Below are positions 15,865 to 22,698 of a stretch of 64,000 nucleotides of DNA, in pieces. Origin of the DNA: Phycisphaerales bacterium (GTDB taxonomy: Bacteria > Planctomycetota > Phycisphaerae > Phycisphaerales > SM1A02); NCBI GenBank assembly GCA_022446795.1, contig JAKVBX010000001.1, forward strand, positions 374,245 to 438,244, written 5' to 3'. The position numbers were made by a program, and so were the translations under genes. The notes under the pieces were generated by a model that worked only from the letters and a program-made list of their open reading frames with translations, had not been told where the DNA came from and did no database searches. Each line of letters starts with the position of its first letter. Positions within the stretch are counted from its first letter, which is position 1.

Positions 15865-16740
15865 TCAGCCCGCCCGCTTGTGATCCGCTTGCCGACCGGC
15901 GGCCCCGAACACGGGTCGATCGCGGAACGCCTCGCGCAGCCGCTCCAGGGCCGCCTGCTCGATCTGCCTCACCCGTTCCCGGGTCAGGCCGACTTCTCGT
16001 CCGGCTTCCTTCAGCGTTCGTGGCGACCGGCCATCCAGGCCGAATCGCATGCGAAGGACGCAGGCCGCCAGGGGCTCGAAGTCCTGCAGGAGTTCACGCA
16101 TCTTCTCCACGTCCTCGCGTCGCTCCAGGATGATCGTGGCTGGTTCGAAGAGATCATCCGGCTGCATGTCGACATCCATACCGGTGGACTCATCATCTCG
16201 CGCCGTTCCGGTTGAGGCCCCCTGCGTAGCCGCCATCGTCCGCTGGATGACCCGCAGCTTGCTGCGGGGGACGTTCATGGCATCAGCCAGTTCTTCCGCC
16301 GTGGGCGCCCGATCCAGCTTGGCCTCCAGTTCCTTGACCGTCCGGTCCCAGGCAGCCATGCGCTGACGCATGTAGGTCGGCACATGCAGGTGCTGACCGA
16401 ACTCCATCACGGCCTGCTTGATCGTCTTGCGGATCCACCACGTGGCATAGGTCGAGAATCGATGGCCCAGGGCCGGATCGAATCGCTCGACCGCCCGGAT
16501 CAACCCGATGTTGCCTTCATTGATGAGGTCCTGCAGCGCCATCCCCTTGCGGAGGTACTGCTTTGAGATACTCACGACCAGGCGCAGATTGGCCTGGATC
16601 ATCTTCCGCTTGCAGTCCACGCAGCTGTCGTTGATTACACCCCAGGCAAGGGTCTTCTCTTCTTCAGCGGAGAGCAGTGCAATGCGGCTGATATCGTCGA
16701 GATACAGTTCGAGATCGTTGCGAACGTCAGATCGGCCCAT
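15865..16740 (-). CDS. Group 2 sigma-70 family RNA polymerase sigma factor
   Basis: About 291 residues from the ATG at 16740. The regions run in order: region 1.2 (D-L-E-L-Y-L-D-D-I-S-R), region 2 (A-N-L-R-L-V-V-S-I-S-K-x-Y, L-x-D-L-I-N-E-G-N-I-G-L-I-R-A, R-F-S-T-Y-A-T-W-W-I-R), region 3 (a short P-T-A-E-E-L-A segment) and region 4 (R-F-G-L-D-G, then T-R-E-R-V-R-Q-I-E). It lacks the acidic region 1.1 of the housekeeping factor, so it is a group 2, RpoS/SigB-class alternative factor. A longer frame reaches 16830. The ATG chosen has no clear ribosome-binding site, but an inverted repeat CGCAC/GTGCG (16753-16767) lies just upstream and could shape the leader. Confidence 0.92.
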   Translation of the reverse strand: MGRSDVRNDLELYLDDISRIALLSAEEEKTLAWGVINDSCVDCKRKMIQANLRLVVSISKQYLRKGMALQDLINEGNIGLIRAVERFDPALGHRFSTYATWWIRKTIKQAVMEFGQHLHVPTYMRQRMAAWDRTVKELEAKLDRAPTAEELADAMNVPRSKLRVIQRTMAATQGASTGTARDDESTGMDVDMQPDDLFEPATIILERREDVEKMRELLQDFEPLAACVLRMRFGLDGRSPRTLKEAGREVGLTRERVRQIEQAALERLREAFRDRPVFGAAGRQADHKRAG

Positions 16741-16940
16741 ATGGCAAGCCCGCGCACGGTACGTGCGAGATGCGGTGGTGTTGGTTGTCGAGGATCGGAG
16801 AGAGTGGAGGCGGAGAGGTCGTTCCGCCACTGTCCGTACGGGTTTCCGGCGACAAGGTTCGGTGCAGGCTCGAATTCAGCCCGTCCGACTGGCCCCCTTT
16901 AAAAGGTGCCTAAACGGACCTGGCCGTGGCACAGGTGGCC

Positions 16941-18557
16941 TCAGGCCGGTTCCGCCTTGATGCCCTGGGACTCGGCCCTCTTCTCAATGCCCCCCAGGAA
17001 GATCTCGGCGAGAGCCTCGTAGATCGCCTTGCGGCAGACCAGTCGGGAGCACTCGTAGGCCAGGATCGACGAGGCAATCAGTGGCAGGGTCACGAATCTC
17101 GCATCGGTCATCTCGATCATGATCACGAAGACGGTAATGGGGCTCTGCACCACGCCCGCGAAGTAGGCCACCATGAACAGCATGATCACGAACTGGGGAT
17201 CGATCCCCCCGAACACATCGTGGAACAAGTCAGCGCAGAGATTCCCCAGCCCGGCACCGACCGACAGGCTGGGATCAAAGAGCCCCCCGGGGATCCCACT
17301 GATCAGGCTGAAGTAACTGCCCCCGGCCTTCATGAACGGATACCACCAGGGATAGCCCTCGGGACGGTGCCATTCGTCATAGAACGCCCGTTCCTCCGGA
17401 TCACCGAGCACGTGATAGGCCGTTTCCACGGCATAGGCTTCCGGATCCAGTTCGTCGGCACCCGTGAGAAGCGGCTGCCTGTTCTGCCGGGTGTCGTAGG
17501 CCGCGTGGATCTCCTCGTGCGTGGCATCCTTCGTCACCCCAAGCGTGCCGTAGAAGTCCGTCCCGCGATACATCAGGATTGCCTTGGCCTGCGGATAGCC
17601 GCTGCCGTAGGACTGTCCTCCACTGGCCAGCCCGATGCCGGCGAGGCACAGGCCAAGGACGCCGGCGGTCAGGTAGGGATGCTTCCGGACATTTCGCGTC
17701 ACCACGGGCGTTCCCAGGACCACCCCACGGGCGAACAGGCCTCCGAGGAATCCGCCGATGCAGGCGATGACCGGCACGGCCAGCCAGTGGATGATGTCGA
17801 ATCCGAAGTGTCGGTTGATGCTGCCATAGAACAGGTAGTCCCATCCCAGCATGGCGATGACCACGAGTGACGCCAGCAGGACCACGCGAACGATGGTGCT
17901 GGCGTTGTTCTTGTCGAATGACCGACCGATCTCCTCGAAGGCGAAGATCATCCCGGCAATGGGCGCGTTGAAGGCAGCGGCGATACCCGCCCCGCCACCA
18001 CCGAGGATCAGGCCACGCTGCACCAGGTGCTTCGGGAACTTGGTGATCTTCGTGATGCCGTACATGAAGCAGGCACCCACGTGCACCGATGGCCCCTCGC
18101 GTCCGATCGTCATGCCCGAGAACAGGCCCAGGCACAACAGGATCGTCTTCCCGATCAGGATCCGCCACGAGAGCATGAACTTCCGGATGGGTCCGTCCTT
18201 GACGTGGAGGGACGCAATCGCCTGCGGAATACCGGTGCCCTCGGTTCCTGGGAAGAACCGGTCACGAACCCGCATGATCACGATCATCGACACGGTGATC
18301 AGCACCATGCCCAGCACGACGCCGAGCGTGCCATCCACCTTCCAGCCCATCCACTCGTGCTGGCCGGTCAGGGCCCGGAAGAACTGGAACCCCCAGATGT
18401 CGACCTCTCGGAAGAACAGGGCAAACAGCCCGGTGAGGCACGCCGCCACGATGACGAGCCCATGACGCCACCAGGCCATCCAGGAGAACACCGTGGTTCG
18501 CCAGAGGTGTGCGTCCTCCAGTTCAGGTGGTGACTGGTTCTCGTGCGGTGTGCTCAT
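16941..18557 (-). CDS. ClC-family chloride channel/antiporter with inserted J-domain-like segment
   Basis: A 538-residue ClC protein. The gating-glutamate motif GREGP is at 152-156, the second selectivity motif is G-I-P-G-G at 421-425, and the first is GTGIP at 107-111, with Thr where most chloride-type ClCs have Ser. Between G-S-G-Y (318-321) and the helix before G-I-P-G-G there are about 75 extra residues. Residues 333-397 of these read like a DnaJ domain: D-F-Y-G-T-L-G-V, E-E-I-H-A-A-Y, then A-Y-H-V-L-G-D-P-E-E-R-A-F-Y-D. The His-Pro-Asp triplet needed to stimulate Hsp70 is absent. By position this matches the extracytoplasmic K-M loop of animal ClCs. GAGAGGA precedes the ATG. Confidence 0.9.
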   Translation of the reverse strand: MSTPHENQSPPELEDAHLWRTTVFSWMAWWRHGLVIVAACLTGLFALFFREVDIWGFQFFRALTGQHEWMGWKVDGTLGVVLGMVLITVSMIVIMRVRDRFFPGTEGTGIPQAIASLHVKDGPIRKFMLSWRILIGKTILLCLGLFSGMTIGREGPSVHVGACFMYGITKITKFPKHLVQRGLILGGGGAGIAAAFNAPIAGMIFAFEEIGRSFDKNNASTIVRVVLLASLVVIAMLGWDYLFYGSINRHFGFDIIHWLAVPVIACIGGFLGGLFARGVVLGTPVVTRNVRKHPYLTAGVLGLCLAGIGLASGGQSYGSGYPQAKAILMYRGTDFYGTLGVTKDATHEEIHAAYDTRQNRQPLLTGADELDPEAYAVETAYHVLGDPEERAFYDEWHRPEGYPWWYPFMKAGGSYFSLISGIPGGLFDPSLSVGAGLGNLCADLFHDVFGGIDPQFVIMLFMVAYFAGVVQSPITVFVIMIEMTDARFVTLPLIASSILAYECSRLVCRKAIYEALAEIFLGGIEKRAESQGIKAEPA

Positions 18558-18822: not shown

Positions 18823-19431
18823 TCAGCTGGCCGTGGCCATCGCCGGAGGATCTGCTTCGATGCCGCCGTTGCGCAGGGCATTCCAGGTGGCCACCAGGAT
18901 CAACCCGAGGAAGAACAACTGGATACCGAAGAGCAGGCCGGGCGCCCAGAGCGCATCGCGAGGCCACCAGATCACCAGGAGAACGGCCAGCACGATGCTG
19001 CCGATGCCGCCGATGAACTGGAGCCCGGGCGCCACGTGTGACCGCGTGGGCATGCCGAAGACATCCATGAGTCCCCGCAGGAAGCACCAGCCCGCGAGAA
19101 CCAGCGTCACGATCTCCAGGCTCTCGAATGGCCACACGAGGAAAAGTACGCCAAGCCCCCCGATGAGCAGCGCATTGACGAGGTTCAGGAGCACCGACTC
19201 CGAACCACCCATGAAGGTGCGGGCCAGGAGGACCACGCCGGACAGGATGGACATCCACCCCAGGATGAGGATCAGGATGGTGGAGGCGATGAAGGGCGAG
19301 ATGACCATCGCGAAGAGCCCGCACAGCAGGAGCAGGATGCCCTCCACCAGGACGACGCCCCGGGCTTGCCGCAGGCGTTCACGGATCTCCCAGGGATTGA
19401 CGCTTCCAACCGACGCGTGAGGTGTTTCCAT
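18823..19431 (-). CDS. HdeD/DUF308 family membrane protein
   Basis: A 202-residue integral membrane protein with six hydrophobic helices in three similar pairs, including G-I-L-L-L-L-C-G-L-F-A and L-G-W-M-S-I-L-S-G. This is the pattern of the HdeD acid-resistance family. The biochemical role of the family is not settled; HdeD is linked to acid tolerance in enterobacteria. AAGGAAGG lies seven bases before the ATG at 19431. The gene sits downstream of four small heat-shock genes but is separated from them by a clear terminator (19595-19635), so it has its own promoter. A stress-response role fits the neighbourhood but is inference. Confidence 0.8.
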   Translation of the reverse strand: METPHASVGSVNPWEIRERLRQARGVVLVEGILLLLCGLFAMVISPFIASTILILILGWMSILSGVVLLARTFMGGSESVLLNLVNALLIGGLGVLFLVWPFESLEIVTLVLAGWCFLRGLMDVFGMPTRSHVAPGLQFIGGIGSIVLAVLLVIWWPRDALWAPGLLFGIQLFFLGLILVATWNALRNGGIEADPPAMATAS

Positions 19432-19654: not shown

Positions 19655-20068
19655 TCACTCGGCCCTGACCTCGATAGTTCGTGTTCCCGTCGGCGCCAGC
19701 TTCGGCAGCCGAACGGTCAGGATTCCGTCCTTGCAGGTGGCACTGATCTGGCTGACATCAATGCCGTCTCCGATTCGGAAGCGGCGATGGAAGTCGCCGA
19801 TCCCGTACTCTCGATGCAGAACGCGTCCCAGGTTCTCGTACCGGTTGGACACCGTGCTGGTCACCTCGAGGGTGTTGTCCTCGACGGAGAGGTCGATGCC
19901 GTCCGCCGTGGCCCCGGGCATGTCCGCGACGATGGTGAACTCACCGTCCGCCTCGTAGACGTCAATCGGTGCCCGGTAGTACTGCGGCCGCTTGGTGACG
20001 TTGTCATGGCGAGGGGCCAGGGCGTCGGTGCCGCAACAGGTGTTGTAGTTGGTCATGCTTGTGTTCAT
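19655..20068 (-). CDS. Hsp20/alpha-crystallin family small heat-shock protein (1)
   Basis: 137 residues from the ATG at 20068, with AGGAG seven bases upstream. The alpha-crystallin domain spans about 30-128: R-A-P-I-D-V-Y-E at its start, V-A-D-M-P-G in the middle, and the signature A-x-x-K-D-G-I-L-T-V-x-L-P-K near the end. The C-terminal extension ends in an I-E-V motif that would dock into a neighbouring subunit, so oligomers are likely. As an ATP-independent holdase it should bind unfolding proteins under stress. It follows hsp20 gene 2 by 55 bp and probably shares its transcript. The cysteine pair in N-T-C-C-G near residue 11 is unusual. Confidence 0.93.
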   Translation of the reverse strand: MNTSMTNYNTCCGTDALAPRHDNVTKRPQYYRAPIDVYEADGEFTIVADMPGATADGIDLSVEDNTLEVTSTVSNRYENLGRVLHREYGIGDFHRRFRIGDGIDVSQISATCKDGILTVRLPKLAPTGTRTIEVRAE

Positions 20069-20123
20069 GGAAGTGCTCCTACGATCTGCAGGTGTACGTG
20101 TTCGTGGTGTTCTCGATTCGGTA

Positions 20124-20555
20124 TCAGCCCTCGGTGACCTGGACTCGACGTGCCTTGGCGTTTTCGCTCTTGGGCATCGTGAGCAGGAGGACACCTTCAC
20201 GAAGCACGGCCTCGGTGCCGTTGGCCTCGACGTTGGCCGGAAGCGAGATGGAACGCTCGAACTCCAGGTCGCCTCGCTCGCGACGGATCGCATTGGTATC
20301 GACCGGAGTCGTCACGGTGCGTCGGCCGCTGATCGTCAGCACGCCGTCGGCCACGGTGACATCCACGTCTTCCATCCGGACGCCGGGCAGCTCGGCCTCG
20401 ACGTACACGTTGTTGTCGTCGTCGATCATGTTGAGCGACGGGTAGGCTCGCGTGCCGGAGTGGGAGGCAAGGACGTTGTCAAACATGCGTTCCACTTCAT
20501 TTCGTACGAGCGTCATGGCGTTGCCTGCGGGAGTAAAGAGTGCGCGTGTGTTCAT
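20124..20555 (-). CDS. Hsp20/alpha-crystallin family small heat-shock protein (2)
   Basis: 143 residues from the ATG at 20555, preceded by GGAGGTG. The short N-terminal arm (N-E-V-E-R-M-F-D-N-V) is the classical Hsp20 form, followed by an alpha-crystallin domain with V-E-A-E-L-P-G-V, V-L-T-I-S-G-R-R and the signature E-G-V-L-L-L-T-M-P-K. The tail has a V-Q-V docking motif. It looks like the most canonical chaperone of the four. A consensus sigma-54 promoter lies 103 to 118 bases upstream of its ATG, so expression probably depends on an enhancer-binding activator; none is encoded in the window. Confidence 0.95.
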   Translation of the reverse strand: MNTRALFTPAGNAMTLVRNEVERMFDNVLASHSGTRAYPSLNMIDDDNNVYVEAELPGVRMEDVDVTVADGVLTISGRRTVTTPVDTNAIRRERGDLEFERSISLPANVEANGTEAVLREGVLLLTMPKSENAKARRVQVTEG

Positions 20556-20657
20556 GGCACACCTCCGTTTGGTTGTCCGGAAGACCAGTAGGCTTCCGGG
20601 TTGAATCTTGTTCGGACACTTTGAAAAACGTTTTCTTCGTGTGTCCATTCCAGGGAA

Positions 20658-20673
20658 TGCAAGGGCCGTGCCA
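20658..20673 (-). promoter_or_regulatory. Sigma-54 (RpoN) -24/-12 promoter for hsp20 gene 2
   Basis: Read on the minus strand the site is TGGCACGGCCCTTGCA, a full match to TGGCAC-N5-TTGCA, with a pyrimidine before it and GG and GC at the invariant positions. The expected transcript start is near 20647, giving a leader of about 90 bases before the ATG at 20555. It is intergenic and correctly oriented. Confidence 0.75.
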
Positions 20674-20715
20674 GTTGTGTTCCGGCGTTTAAGCGGCCCT
20701 AAACCGGATGCCAGG

Positions 20716-20801
20716 TGCCGCTTCGGCAGGCGTGCTGCCGCTTCGGCATGCCCCTTCCAGGGGCCTTCAAGTCGTCCCCCGGGAGCGGACTCCCGGGGGA
20801 C
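20716..20801. repeat. Cluster of stable hairpins between hsp20 genes 2 and 3
   Basis: TGCCGCTTCGGCA occurs twice (20716-20728 and 20736-20748), each a tight hairpin. A perfect 12-bp stem then follows: GTCCCCCGGGAG (20774-20785) with CTCCCGGGGGAC (20790-20801) around a four-base loop. None is followed by a T run. They may protect the 3' end of the hsp20 gene 3 transcript or stop transcription with a factor's help, insulating the sigma-54 promoter downstream. Confidence 0.6.
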
Positions 20802-20849
20802 GAGATCAAGTGCCATTCGACAGGTGGGCGTGTGCCCATTCCGTCACGG

Positions 20850-21803
20850 TCAGGCCACTGCGGCCACCGTGTTGCGGATTCGGGAAGGGGTTCCCGTGAT
20901 CGCATTGACCTTGGGCAGGCTGATGGTCAGCACGCCGTTGGTGATGCTCGCCGTGATGTCCTCGACAGTGATGTCGCGGCCGATGGCGAAGGCACGCTGG
21001 TAGATCTTGACCGCGGCCTTTTCCCGGGAAATCGTGGCCACCGGGGTGGTAACGCTGAGGCCGGGGACGAAGGTCGTGGACTGGGCCACGCCCTTGATCA
21101 CCAGGATGCCGTTCTCGACGGTCAGTTCGAGATCGTCGATCTTCACGCCGGGGAGGTCGGCGACCAGCAGGTACTGGGAGCCGTCATCCAGGACGTCGAT
21201 CGGCAGATGAGCGATGACCGGCTGGCCGGTGATCGCAGCCTGCTGCGACAGGGCGACGTTGCCAGGCGTGTTGTAGCCCATCGCATTCATGCCGAGGGTG
21301 TTGGCGCCCATGGCATTCATGCCGAGGGTGTTGATCATCGGGCTCACTGACTGGGCGGCGACGGCAGGCGTGTTGAGGCCGGAAAGGCCGTTGAAGCTCG
21401 AGGCCTGGCCGTTGAAGCCGGTCATCCAGGGGCTGAAGCCCATGGCGGGAGCGGCGTAGGCAGCCGTGGTCGTGAAGGGATTCACGAAGGACTCGGACTG
21501 CCACATGCCCGGGAGCTGGCCCATGAAGGCGTTCTGCCGGGCGTACGGCAGCGTGCTGGCAGCGAACGTGGCCGGGGTGTTCCAGGCCGAAGCGGCGGAC
21601 AGATCGGTCATCGCATTCATGCCGGCGAAAGGCATGTTCCAGCTCATGGATGCCGGGGTGTTCCAGGCGCCGAAGGAGGCATTCATCGTGGGCTGAACGC
21701 CGACGAAGTCATAGCCACCCATTCCCAGTGTTGCACCGTTGTTGAAGAGATTCGACTGAACCTTGTTGGTGCCCGTTTCCTTGACTTGAACTTTGATAGC
21801 CAT
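20850..21803 (-). CDS. Small heat-shock protein with long Met/Asn-rich repetitive N-terminus (3)
   Basis: 317 residues, roughly twice the usual Hsp20 length; AAGGAG precedes the ATG at 21803. Residues 198-298 form the alpha-crystallin domain (P-I-D-V-L-D-D-G at its start, V-A-D-L-P-G-V, L-V-I-K-G, and T-N-G-V-L-T-I-S-L-P-K at its end). The first 195 residues are low complexity, rich in Met, Asn, Ala, Gly and Thr, with recurring W/L-N-T-P-A and T-L-G-M-N-A-M-G units. The latter is an exact 10-residue tandem repeat. The composition resembles prion-like or phase-separating segments, so the arm may drive assembly or bind exposed methionine-rich surfaces. That is inference. It lies upstream of the sigma-54-controlled hsp20 gene and just downstream of the zinc-finger Hsp20. 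Confidence 0.9.
   Translation of the reverse strand: MAIKVQVKETGTNKVQSNLFNNGATLGMGGYDFVGVQPTMNASFGAWNTPASMSWNMPFAGMNAMTDLSAASAWNTPATFAASTLPYARQNAFMGQLPGMWQSESFVNPFTTTAAYAAPAMGFSPWMTGFNGQASSFNGLSGLNTPAVAAQSVSPMINTLGMNAMGANTLGMNAMGYNTPGNVALSQQAAITGQPVIAHLPIDVLDDGSQYLLVADLPGVKIDDLELTVENGILVIKGVAQSTTFVPGLSVTTPVATISREKAAVKIYQRAFAIGRDITVEDITASITNGVLTISLPKVNAITGTPSRIRNTVAAVA
21276..21333. repeat. Tandem 30-bp direct repeat inside hsp20 gene 3
   Basis: Two 28-base copies (21276-21303 and 21306-21333) differ at one position and are spaced with a period of 30 bases. They encode the protein repeat N-T-L-G-M-N-A-M-G-x. The near-identity suggests recent duplication or slippage. Confidence 0.8.
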
Positions 21804-21853
21804 CTCGAAACTCCTTATGAAGAGATGCTTTTCAAACGCGGTCCGAGGGGTCC

Positions 21854-21872
21854 CCCGCGTGACGTACGCGGG
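21854..21872. repeat. Hairpin between hsp20 genes 4 and 3
   Basis: CCCGCGT (21854-21860) pairs with ACGCGGG (21866-21872) around a five-base loop in the 92-bp gap. No T run follows on either strand, so it is more likely a leader or processing structure than a terminator. Confidence 0.5.
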
Positions 21873-21895
21873 TTCCAGATCGCCTCGGTTTGAAA

Positions 21896-22423
21896 TCAGT
21901 TGGCGTTCATTCCCAATACCGCTGCGGCCTCGGGACGCTCGATGGGAAGGACCAGCCGCAGTACACCGTCAAGCAGGTTGGCTCGAATGGCACTGATGCG
22001 GGTCACATCAACCGCCTCGGGCAACTCGATGATCCGTTCCGTGGCGGGCTGCATCCGCTCGCGAGCGATCTGCACCGGTGATTCGGGTGCATCCACTCGT
22101 GGGAGCGTCCGGATCGTGACGGTTCGTTCCTGGACGGCGACGTCCAGGTCCCGGGCCACGACGCCAGGCACTTCCATATCGATGATCAGCCAGCCAGCGG
22201 CTTCCACCACCGAGGTGTTGGGGACGACGGTGGGGCGGACCACACCGGTGCCATTGCAGTCCTGGCACATCAAGGACCCTGTAATGTCCAGGCCCAACAG
22301 GCCCGTCGACACCTCGCCCGTGCCCTGGCACGCCCGGCAGGTTGTCGCCTCGGCGTTGGCAATAGCGGAGTAGGTCCGTGAATTCGTGGACGTGTTGGTC
22401 GGAGCAGTCATCAACGTAGTCAT
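21896..22423 (-). CDS. DnaJ-type zinc finger fused to Hsp20 domain (4)
   Basis: 175 residues from the ATG at 22423, preceded by GGGAG. The N-terminal part holds two C-x-x-C-x-G-x-G motifs (CRACQGTG at 29-36, CQDCNGTG at 53-60). This is half of the four-motif DnaJ cysteine-rich region and enough to bind one zinc ion. An alpha-crystallin-like domain follows (about 68-165) with W-L-I-I-D-M-E-V-P-G and the ending L-L-D-G-V-L-R-L-V-L-P. No J-domain is present. The zinc finger of DnaJ binds unfolded polypeptide, so the fusion would combine two client-binding modules in an ATP-independent chaperone. It is the first gene of the four-gene cluster. Confidence 0.88.
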   Translation of the reverse strand: MTTLMTAPTNTSTNSRTYSAIANAEATTCRACQGTGEVSTGLLGLDITGSLMCQDCNGTGVVRPTVVPNTSVVEAAGWLIIDMEVPGVVARDLDVAVQERTVTIRTLPRVDAPESPVQIARERMQPATERIIELPEAVDVTRISAIRANLLDGVLRLVLPIERPEAAAVLGMNAN

Positions 22424-22522
22424 GGTTGTTCTCCCTTGACTGTCTTGGTGGGAGCGGATCCGATCCACTCCCGTACTGAAGGCTCGCCGTTCGATCCAGT
22501 GGCGAGACGAAACACCACGACA

Positions 22523-22536
22523 CAACCGGCGTGCCG
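22523..22536 (-). promoter_or_regulatory. Weak sigma-54-like site upstream of hsp20 gene 4
   Basis: On minus the site reads CGGCACGCCGGTTG. The GGCAC element and N5 spacing are right, but the -12 element is TTGTG, with T in place of the C of the near-invariant GC pair. It is 100 bp before the ATG, a position like that of the strong site of gene 2. Treat as a possible, not a likely, promoter. The rest of the gap 22424-22698 shows nothing clear. Confidence 0.25.
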
Positions 22537-22698
22537 ATTCGCCACGAATCCGAGCGGGAATGTCACGAATACCCGTTGGCGCTACTGCAAAGCCGGGTCC
22601 TGGTAGATGAAAGTCGCCGGCCACGAGAATCGCGGCGGCCCGGGTTCGTGCGTTGGTTCACGAACCCCCCTCCAGCGATGCCACCGGGGCAGCCGAAT

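Follow-up and report, generated by a model that had tools for sequence, protein, structure and literature searches.

The window analysed here comprises 64,000 nucleotides of a Phycisphaerales bacterium from the phylum Planctomycetota (assembly GCA_022446795.1, contig JAKVBX010000001.1, positions 374,245 to 438,244). On its reverse strand lies an open reading frame (ORF) of 538 amino acids for a ClC-family chloride transporter with an internal J-like domain (16941..18557, -; Pfam Voltage_CLC over residues 97-504, E 4.2e-73). The insert occupies residues 333-397, or window positions 17367..17561 (-), exactly where an earlier reading from the letters of the DNA (the sequence-only reading) had placed it. 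In the transporter core, the motif GREGP (residues 152-156; 18090..18104, -), with the external gating glutamate E154, aligns with GREGP in the Escherichia coli and Salmonella ClC proteins and is invariant in an alignment (A1) of 51 proteins, 15 of them insert-less relatives. GGLFDP (residues 424-429; 17271..17288, -) is the GxFxP anion-site motif of helix N. All five antiporter residues recognized by alignment with the E. coli and Salmonella proteins (E154, E209, F427, P429, and Y513) are invariant in 51/51 proteins. Roles for E148, E203, and Y445 in ClC antiport have been described (PMC10394335). Since the external and internal glutamates, GxFxP, and the tyrosine are all kept, the protein is likely, as far as its sequence goes, to exchange Cl- for H+. 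A separate peculiarity is GTGIP at residues 107-111 (18225-18239, -), where ClC-ec1 has the counterpart GSGIP with its central serine; T108 takes the position of that serine in 51/51 proteins, with and without the insert.

The insert is recognizable as a J-domain by several comparisons. Pfam DnaJ aligns over its full length (profile positions 1-63 of 63) with residues 334-394 at 29.8 bits, above the cut-off of 27.8 (E 6.6e-7), and the two best NCBIfam DnaJ models give E 1e-7 and 2.8e-7, both under their whole-protein cut-offs. The J-domain of Thermus DnaJ2 in the PDB matches the window insert at E 3.9e-7. An insert-only profile built from 16 sequences (A4; the window and loci L003-L017, 74 columns) retrieves 63 distinct PDB sequences at E <= 0.001, and most of the 60 listed are named DnaJ or Hsp40, with T. 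thermophilus DnaJ2 at the top (E 3.2e-15). Further matches include Sis1, CbpA, Sec63 (weak, E 5e-4), radial spoke protein 16, and NDH subunit U, which are likewise J proteins. When residues 331-398 were aligned with the J-domains of the two DnaJ-type proteins of the same genome, the score was 29.4 bits, and the highest among 200 shuffled sequences was 5.7. As a donor of the domain, neither of these two is favoured: the inserts of all 38 carrier proteins described below are equally distant from the DnaJ and the CbpA-like J-domain of that genome (mean identity 0.301 and 0.303; 0.288 and 0.333 for the window insert).

Structure prediction agrees with these matches. AlphaFold2 places the four helices of a J-domain in the insert (335-339, 347-358, 372-385, and 387-396), whether it is modelled within the ClC or alone. 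Because two fold searches with the whole ClC model listed ClCs throughout their best 50 rows, the insert was folded and searched separately; Foldseek then returned five chains of 4j7z with probability 1.00 and template modelling (TM) scores of 0.72-0.76 by query length, VIA-align likewise aligned the insert model to J-domains, and chain 9grx_U matched in fold as well as in sequence (A4). Predicted ClC helices flank the insert: a helix at residues 294-311, a short helix L just before it (321-330; 17568..17597, -), and helix M just after it (406-419; 17301..17342, -), the letters being assigned through comparison with ClC-ec1. Residues 333-397 contain no cysteine. The sequence-only reading had proposed an internal insertion rather than a terminal fusion, to be examined by structure prediction and by searches with the insert alone that might reveal an ordinary ClC loop. 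Neither of the refuting outcomes that it named was obtained: the predicted fold is a four-helix J fold, nothing in the insert-less ClCs corresponds to the segment, and the insert-only profile finds DnaJ J-domains. At the level of sequence comparison, homology of the insert to the DnaJ J-domain, and its position inside the ClC, are confirmed.

Other proteins share this architecture. Of 7998 proteins scored in a protein search, 5191 reached E <= 0.001, and the best 120 were examined. By alignment, 38 of these carry the insert (P0001-P0036, P0046, and P0053), each with a Pfam DnaJ match at E <= 0.01; the remaining 82 have a short linker of at most about 15 residues at the same site. Since precomputed Pfam columns show both domains in 35/120 proteins (P0005, P0006, and P0020 are carriers without that mark), the combination of ClC and J-domain is already present in databases. 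A ClC with a J-domain was not found in the literature, as judged by titles and the starts of abstracts for part of the matches, with subscription journals mostly outside the search; the sequence-only reading likewise knew of none in print.

The insert lacks the His-Pro-Asp (HPD) triplet, as had been noted for the window: it is found in 0/38 aligned carrier proteins. In the columns that align with it (Q361-P362-L363 in the window), H occurs in 2 and P in 13 of the carriers and D in none, and in 38/38 one residue is missing just ahead of it relative to the canonical J-domains of the genome, which keeps two ordinary J-proteins with HPD. Residues 362-364 (PLL in the window; 17466..17474, -) are T or P in 37/38, L in 32/38, and L or I in 38/38, respectively, so the former HPD loop follows a conserved pattern that is peculiar to it, [TP]-L-[LI]. 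The insert is 65 residues long in 38/38 carriers, and its invariant positions include Y336, A345, A353, Y354, A380, L384, R390, Y393, and W396. It is acidic, with 4 K/R and 15 D/E in the window and an excess of D/E over K/R in 38/38; histidines number 1 to 5 per sequence and none is invariant. Proteins with a J-domain-like structure that lack HPD have been termed ‘J-like proteins’ (PMC3720927), and the insert, with its predicted J fold and no HPD, fits this definition. The earlier description of the domain as degenerate should not be taken to mean decay, given an invariant fold core and a constant length.

On which side of the membrane the insert stands can be predicted from its position after helix 294-311 and between helices 321-330 and 406-419, i.e., within the K-M region. 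An outer placement agrees with the inverted repeat of ClCs, in which helix L is the counterpart of the inner helix D. The insert also contrasts in charge with a segment at the D-E loop (112-135), which has 4 K/R and 1 D/E. Human ClC-6 is N-glycosylated between helices K and M, a region that is hence exoplasmic; it is highly variable among mammalian ClCs and has been proposed for isoform-specific contacts (PMC1868598). By homology with this glycosylated region, we infer that the insert is exoplasmic. The sequence-only reading had placed it in the K-M loop outside the cytoplasmic membrane, a placement that the ClC-6 homology supports and that is narrowed here to the stretch between helices L and M.

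The history of the carriers was traced with a quick, midpoint-rooted tree built from 89 rows after removal of the insert columns. Its 40 rows with the insert (38 proteins, among them that of the window, together with loci L009 and L013) all lie on one side of a branch with a Shimodaira-Hasegawa-like approximate likelihood ratio test (SH-aLRT) support of 98, implying one change, and no insert-less row falls within the carrier clade of this tree. A single gain of the insert would be the simplest reading. Among named genomes, 19 loci were located. The insert is present in 15 of them (L003-L017), whose titles all refer to metagenome-assembled genomes of Phycisphaerales, Phycisphaerae, or Planctomycetota, and absent from the other four (L018-L021); these counts cannot be added to those of the genome searches because the loci overlap (e.g. 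L009 and L024). In the genome searches, which include the window’s genome, carriers were found in 17/181 genomes and 3/45 genera of the family (every candidate scored in the 37 rows shown) and in 6/6 genomes of the window’s genus. The class and phylum searches yielded 2/397 and 2/392 genomes, respectively, and may miss carriers because they covered samples of genomes with at most 12 candidates scored in each. In the phylum sample, 378/392 genomes had some match at E <= 0.001; the two carriers scored 170.9 and 164.5 bits, against 55.8 bits for the match that followed, which lies in a frame of 400 amino acids and is likely an ordinary DnaJ. No carrier frame in the phylum and family searches contains a stop. 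Both states occur in genus g5: the insert is present in two species, G806 and G807, and absent from a third, G348, whose best match was only E 2.1e-10 in the phylum search, with nothing at 1e-25 in the class search. Within the genomes searched, the insert is thus confined to few genera.

One carrier departs from this pattern. L009 is a complete ClC with the J-like insert in G085, a genome related to that of the window only at the level of the phylum; in the order of G085, to which the window’s genome does not belong, 1/14 genomes carries the insert. Because its kinship is so distant, its usual neighbour genes are absent (sigma factor, Hsp20, DUF308, and LipA), and it is nested within the carrier clade, L009 was likely acquired by lateral transfer or, alternatively, stems from a wrongly binned contig.

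Elsewhere the neighbourhood of the gene is largely shared. A sigma-70 family factor (15865..16830, -; Pfam, with the best NCBIfam models of RpoS type and under their cut-offs) adjoins the ClC gene in 14/15 named carrier loci and in 2/4 insert-less loci. A DUF308/HdeD-like membrane protein (18823..19431, -; Pfam DUF308; NCBIfam HdeD E 6.6e-8, under its cut-off) is matched in 12/15 carrier loci, L003 and L004 being among those without one. A cluster of four small heat-shock genes of the Hsp20 family follows (19655..22624, -; Pfam HSP20 in four ORFs), with an Hsp20 match within the stretch in 14/15 carrier loci. LipA is found in 13/15; L012 ends, with its contig, before LipA. The Hsp20 genes differ in position: they are upstream of the ClC gene in the window and L003-L007, and downstream of the sigma factor, on the opposite strand, in the other loci. 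Of the insert-less loci, L018 and L020 share this set of neighbours and follow the second arrangement, and L019 and L021 have none of it. One Hsp20-family protein of the window (21896-22624, -) has two CxxCxGxG motifs before its alpha-crystallin domain (DnaJ_CXXCXGXG E 5.3e-4, under the cut-off). A shared origin of the insert with this DnaJ-type zinc finger was considered and dropped: the motif pair occurs in 3/16 carrier stretches (the window, L003, and L004; the stretches of L006, L011, and L012 are cut, and a copy may lie past their ends) and was not found in L018 or L020, the two insert-less loci with a like neighbourhood.

As to function, we see roughly an even prospect that the J-like insert, without HPD and predicted on the outer face between L and M, serves as an accessory domain fused to the transporter, either as a cap over it or as a docking site for a partner, and not as an Hsp70 co-chaperone. 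Work as a co-chaperone is unlikely because HPD is gone and the domain is likely outside the membrane. In this model the domain would act by protein contact, stabilizing the outer surface or holding a partner, in the manner of HPD-less J-like subunits of membrane complexes and of the luminal beta-subunits of animal ClCs. J folds without HPD have a structural precedent in NdhU. A more specific version, to which we give less credence, is that the former Hsp70-binding loop, with HPD replaced by hydrophobic [TP]-L-[LI], now binds an extracytoplasmic partner or the ClC itself, as a one-chain equivalent of OSTM1 or TMEM9.

Several observations weigh against a cap or docking domain and bring in the idea that the insert is a tolerated passenger, which entered a permissive exoplasmic loop once and was kept since it folds well, without any function. 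Insert-less relatives with a like neighbourhood evidently manage without it. The insert is under constraint that is weaker than that of the core, which speaks in part against a tight functional role: the mean majority-residue frequency is 0.59 against 0.80 in the core, and among 120 pairs of 16 carrier genes the median pN/pS (proportions of non-synonymous over synonymous differences) is 0.54 against 0.31, with mean pN at 0.385 and 0.196, about twofold faster at non-synonymous sites. Substitution rate ratios (dN/dS) for the three closest pairs are 0.168, 0.074, and 0.107 in the insert and 0.029, 0.038, and 0.050 in the core; the highest insert value, 0.58, is that of the window and L007, and all are rough because synonymous sites are near saturation. 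This weaker conservation fits a loosely constrained passenger as well, as do the variability of the host loop in mammalian ClCs (PMC1868598) and the mixed state of genus g5. Yet a functionless insert would sit poorly with a length of exactly 65 residues in 38/38 carriers, an invariant J core, and a loop in which [TP]-L-[LI] recurs where HPD once stood. Insert dN/dS is below 1 in all 11 of the 15 closest pairs for which it is defined (0.07 to 0.58; saturated in 4), the carrier clade has no insert-less row, and every genome of the window’s genus keeps the insert. We regard the passenger as unlikely, though it is the leading alternative to the fused accessory domain.

Slightly less probable than the passenger is a sensor or gate, in which protonation of the acidic insert, or ion binding to it, would shift the domain over the outer anion entrance and tune exchange under stress. 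The excess of acidic residues in every carrier and the location of the gene beside those for the sigma factor, the DUF308 protein of HdeD type, and the small heat-shock proteins would suit such a role. Against this, no insert histidine is invariant, and several source titles suggest the open sea and not acid habitats. The neighbourhood itself fails to explain the insert because two insert-less relatives share it, which leaves acid resistance unsupported as the reason for the insert. The chaperone-rich neighbourhood and the clear DnaJ homology could also suggest that the J-domain still works and brings cytoplasmic Hsp70 (DnaK) to the transporter. DnaK is cytoplasmic and the loop exoplasmic by homology, the genome has its two ordinary HPD J-proteins, and a residue is missing before the HPD position; with the triplet absent in 38/38 and the likely membrane side, this tether was rejected as very improbable. 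Almost no weight is left for a helical insertion that resembles a J-domain by chance, or for an assembly error. The single-sequence Pfam value (E 6.6e-7) is by itself moderate, but the family profile (E 3e-15), the shuffles (5.7 against 29.4 bits), the recurrence at 15 named loci on many separate contig records, and the lack of stops within carrier frames led us to reject both.

The fused accessory domain can be set beside several known systems. Compared with the prokaryotic Cl-/H+ antiporters ClC-ec1 and Synechocystis Sll0855, the window ClC differs by its 65-residue J-like domain between L and M. In relation to DnaJ and other J-domain proteins (PF00226), the insert is homologous above cut-off and has the predicted four-helix fold, but it is without HPD, shorter by one residue before it, acidic, set inside a transporter, and predicted to be exoplasmic. 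J-domains are activators of Hsp70 in compartments that hold an Hsp70. Sec63 and J-domains of the lumen of the endoplasmic reticulum offer a likeness in that the domain stands beyond a membrane; they keep HPD and have a luminal Hsp70 as partner, and bacteria are not known to have a periplasmic Hsp70. NdhU/CRRL of the chloroplast NDH complex, which also lacks HPD, is a J-like subunit (PMC9407819) but a separate protein of a plastid complex, unlike an insert within the transporter chain. OSTM1 and TMEM9, the beta-subunits of animal ClCs, reach over the luminal face or contact it with their extracytoplasmic domains, with contact points at the K-L linker of CLC-7 and a helix-B insertion of ClC-3 (PMC7440919, PMC12403049), and the luminal domains of OSTM1 are reported to make few contacts with ClC-7 (PMC12403049). 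These are separate, disulfide-stabilized transmembrane subunits, unlike a cysteine-free J fold in the ClC chain itself.

What sets the window ClC apart is a J-domain without HPD inside a transporter and predicted to stand where no Hsp70 is known. If our interpretation is true, bacteria would have taken a J-domain out of its chaperone role and placed it on the outside of an ion transporter, and the J fold would gain a structural use as a domain inserted into another protein. The insert-less relatives with a like neighbourhood offer a direct comparison for the effect of an added exoplasmic domain on a ClC, which is also at issue for animal ClCs and their subunits OSTM1 and TMEM9.

Some further observations concern the genome and its surroundings. 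A plasmid search gave 134 records, every one below 60% identity. The sigma factor next to the ClC gene (15865-16830, -) is a possible dedicated stress regulator. The same genome has a second ClC gene (L001, G000:C11), whose match to the 346-position Voltage_CLC model covers 1113 bases and so leaves no room for a J insert within that match.
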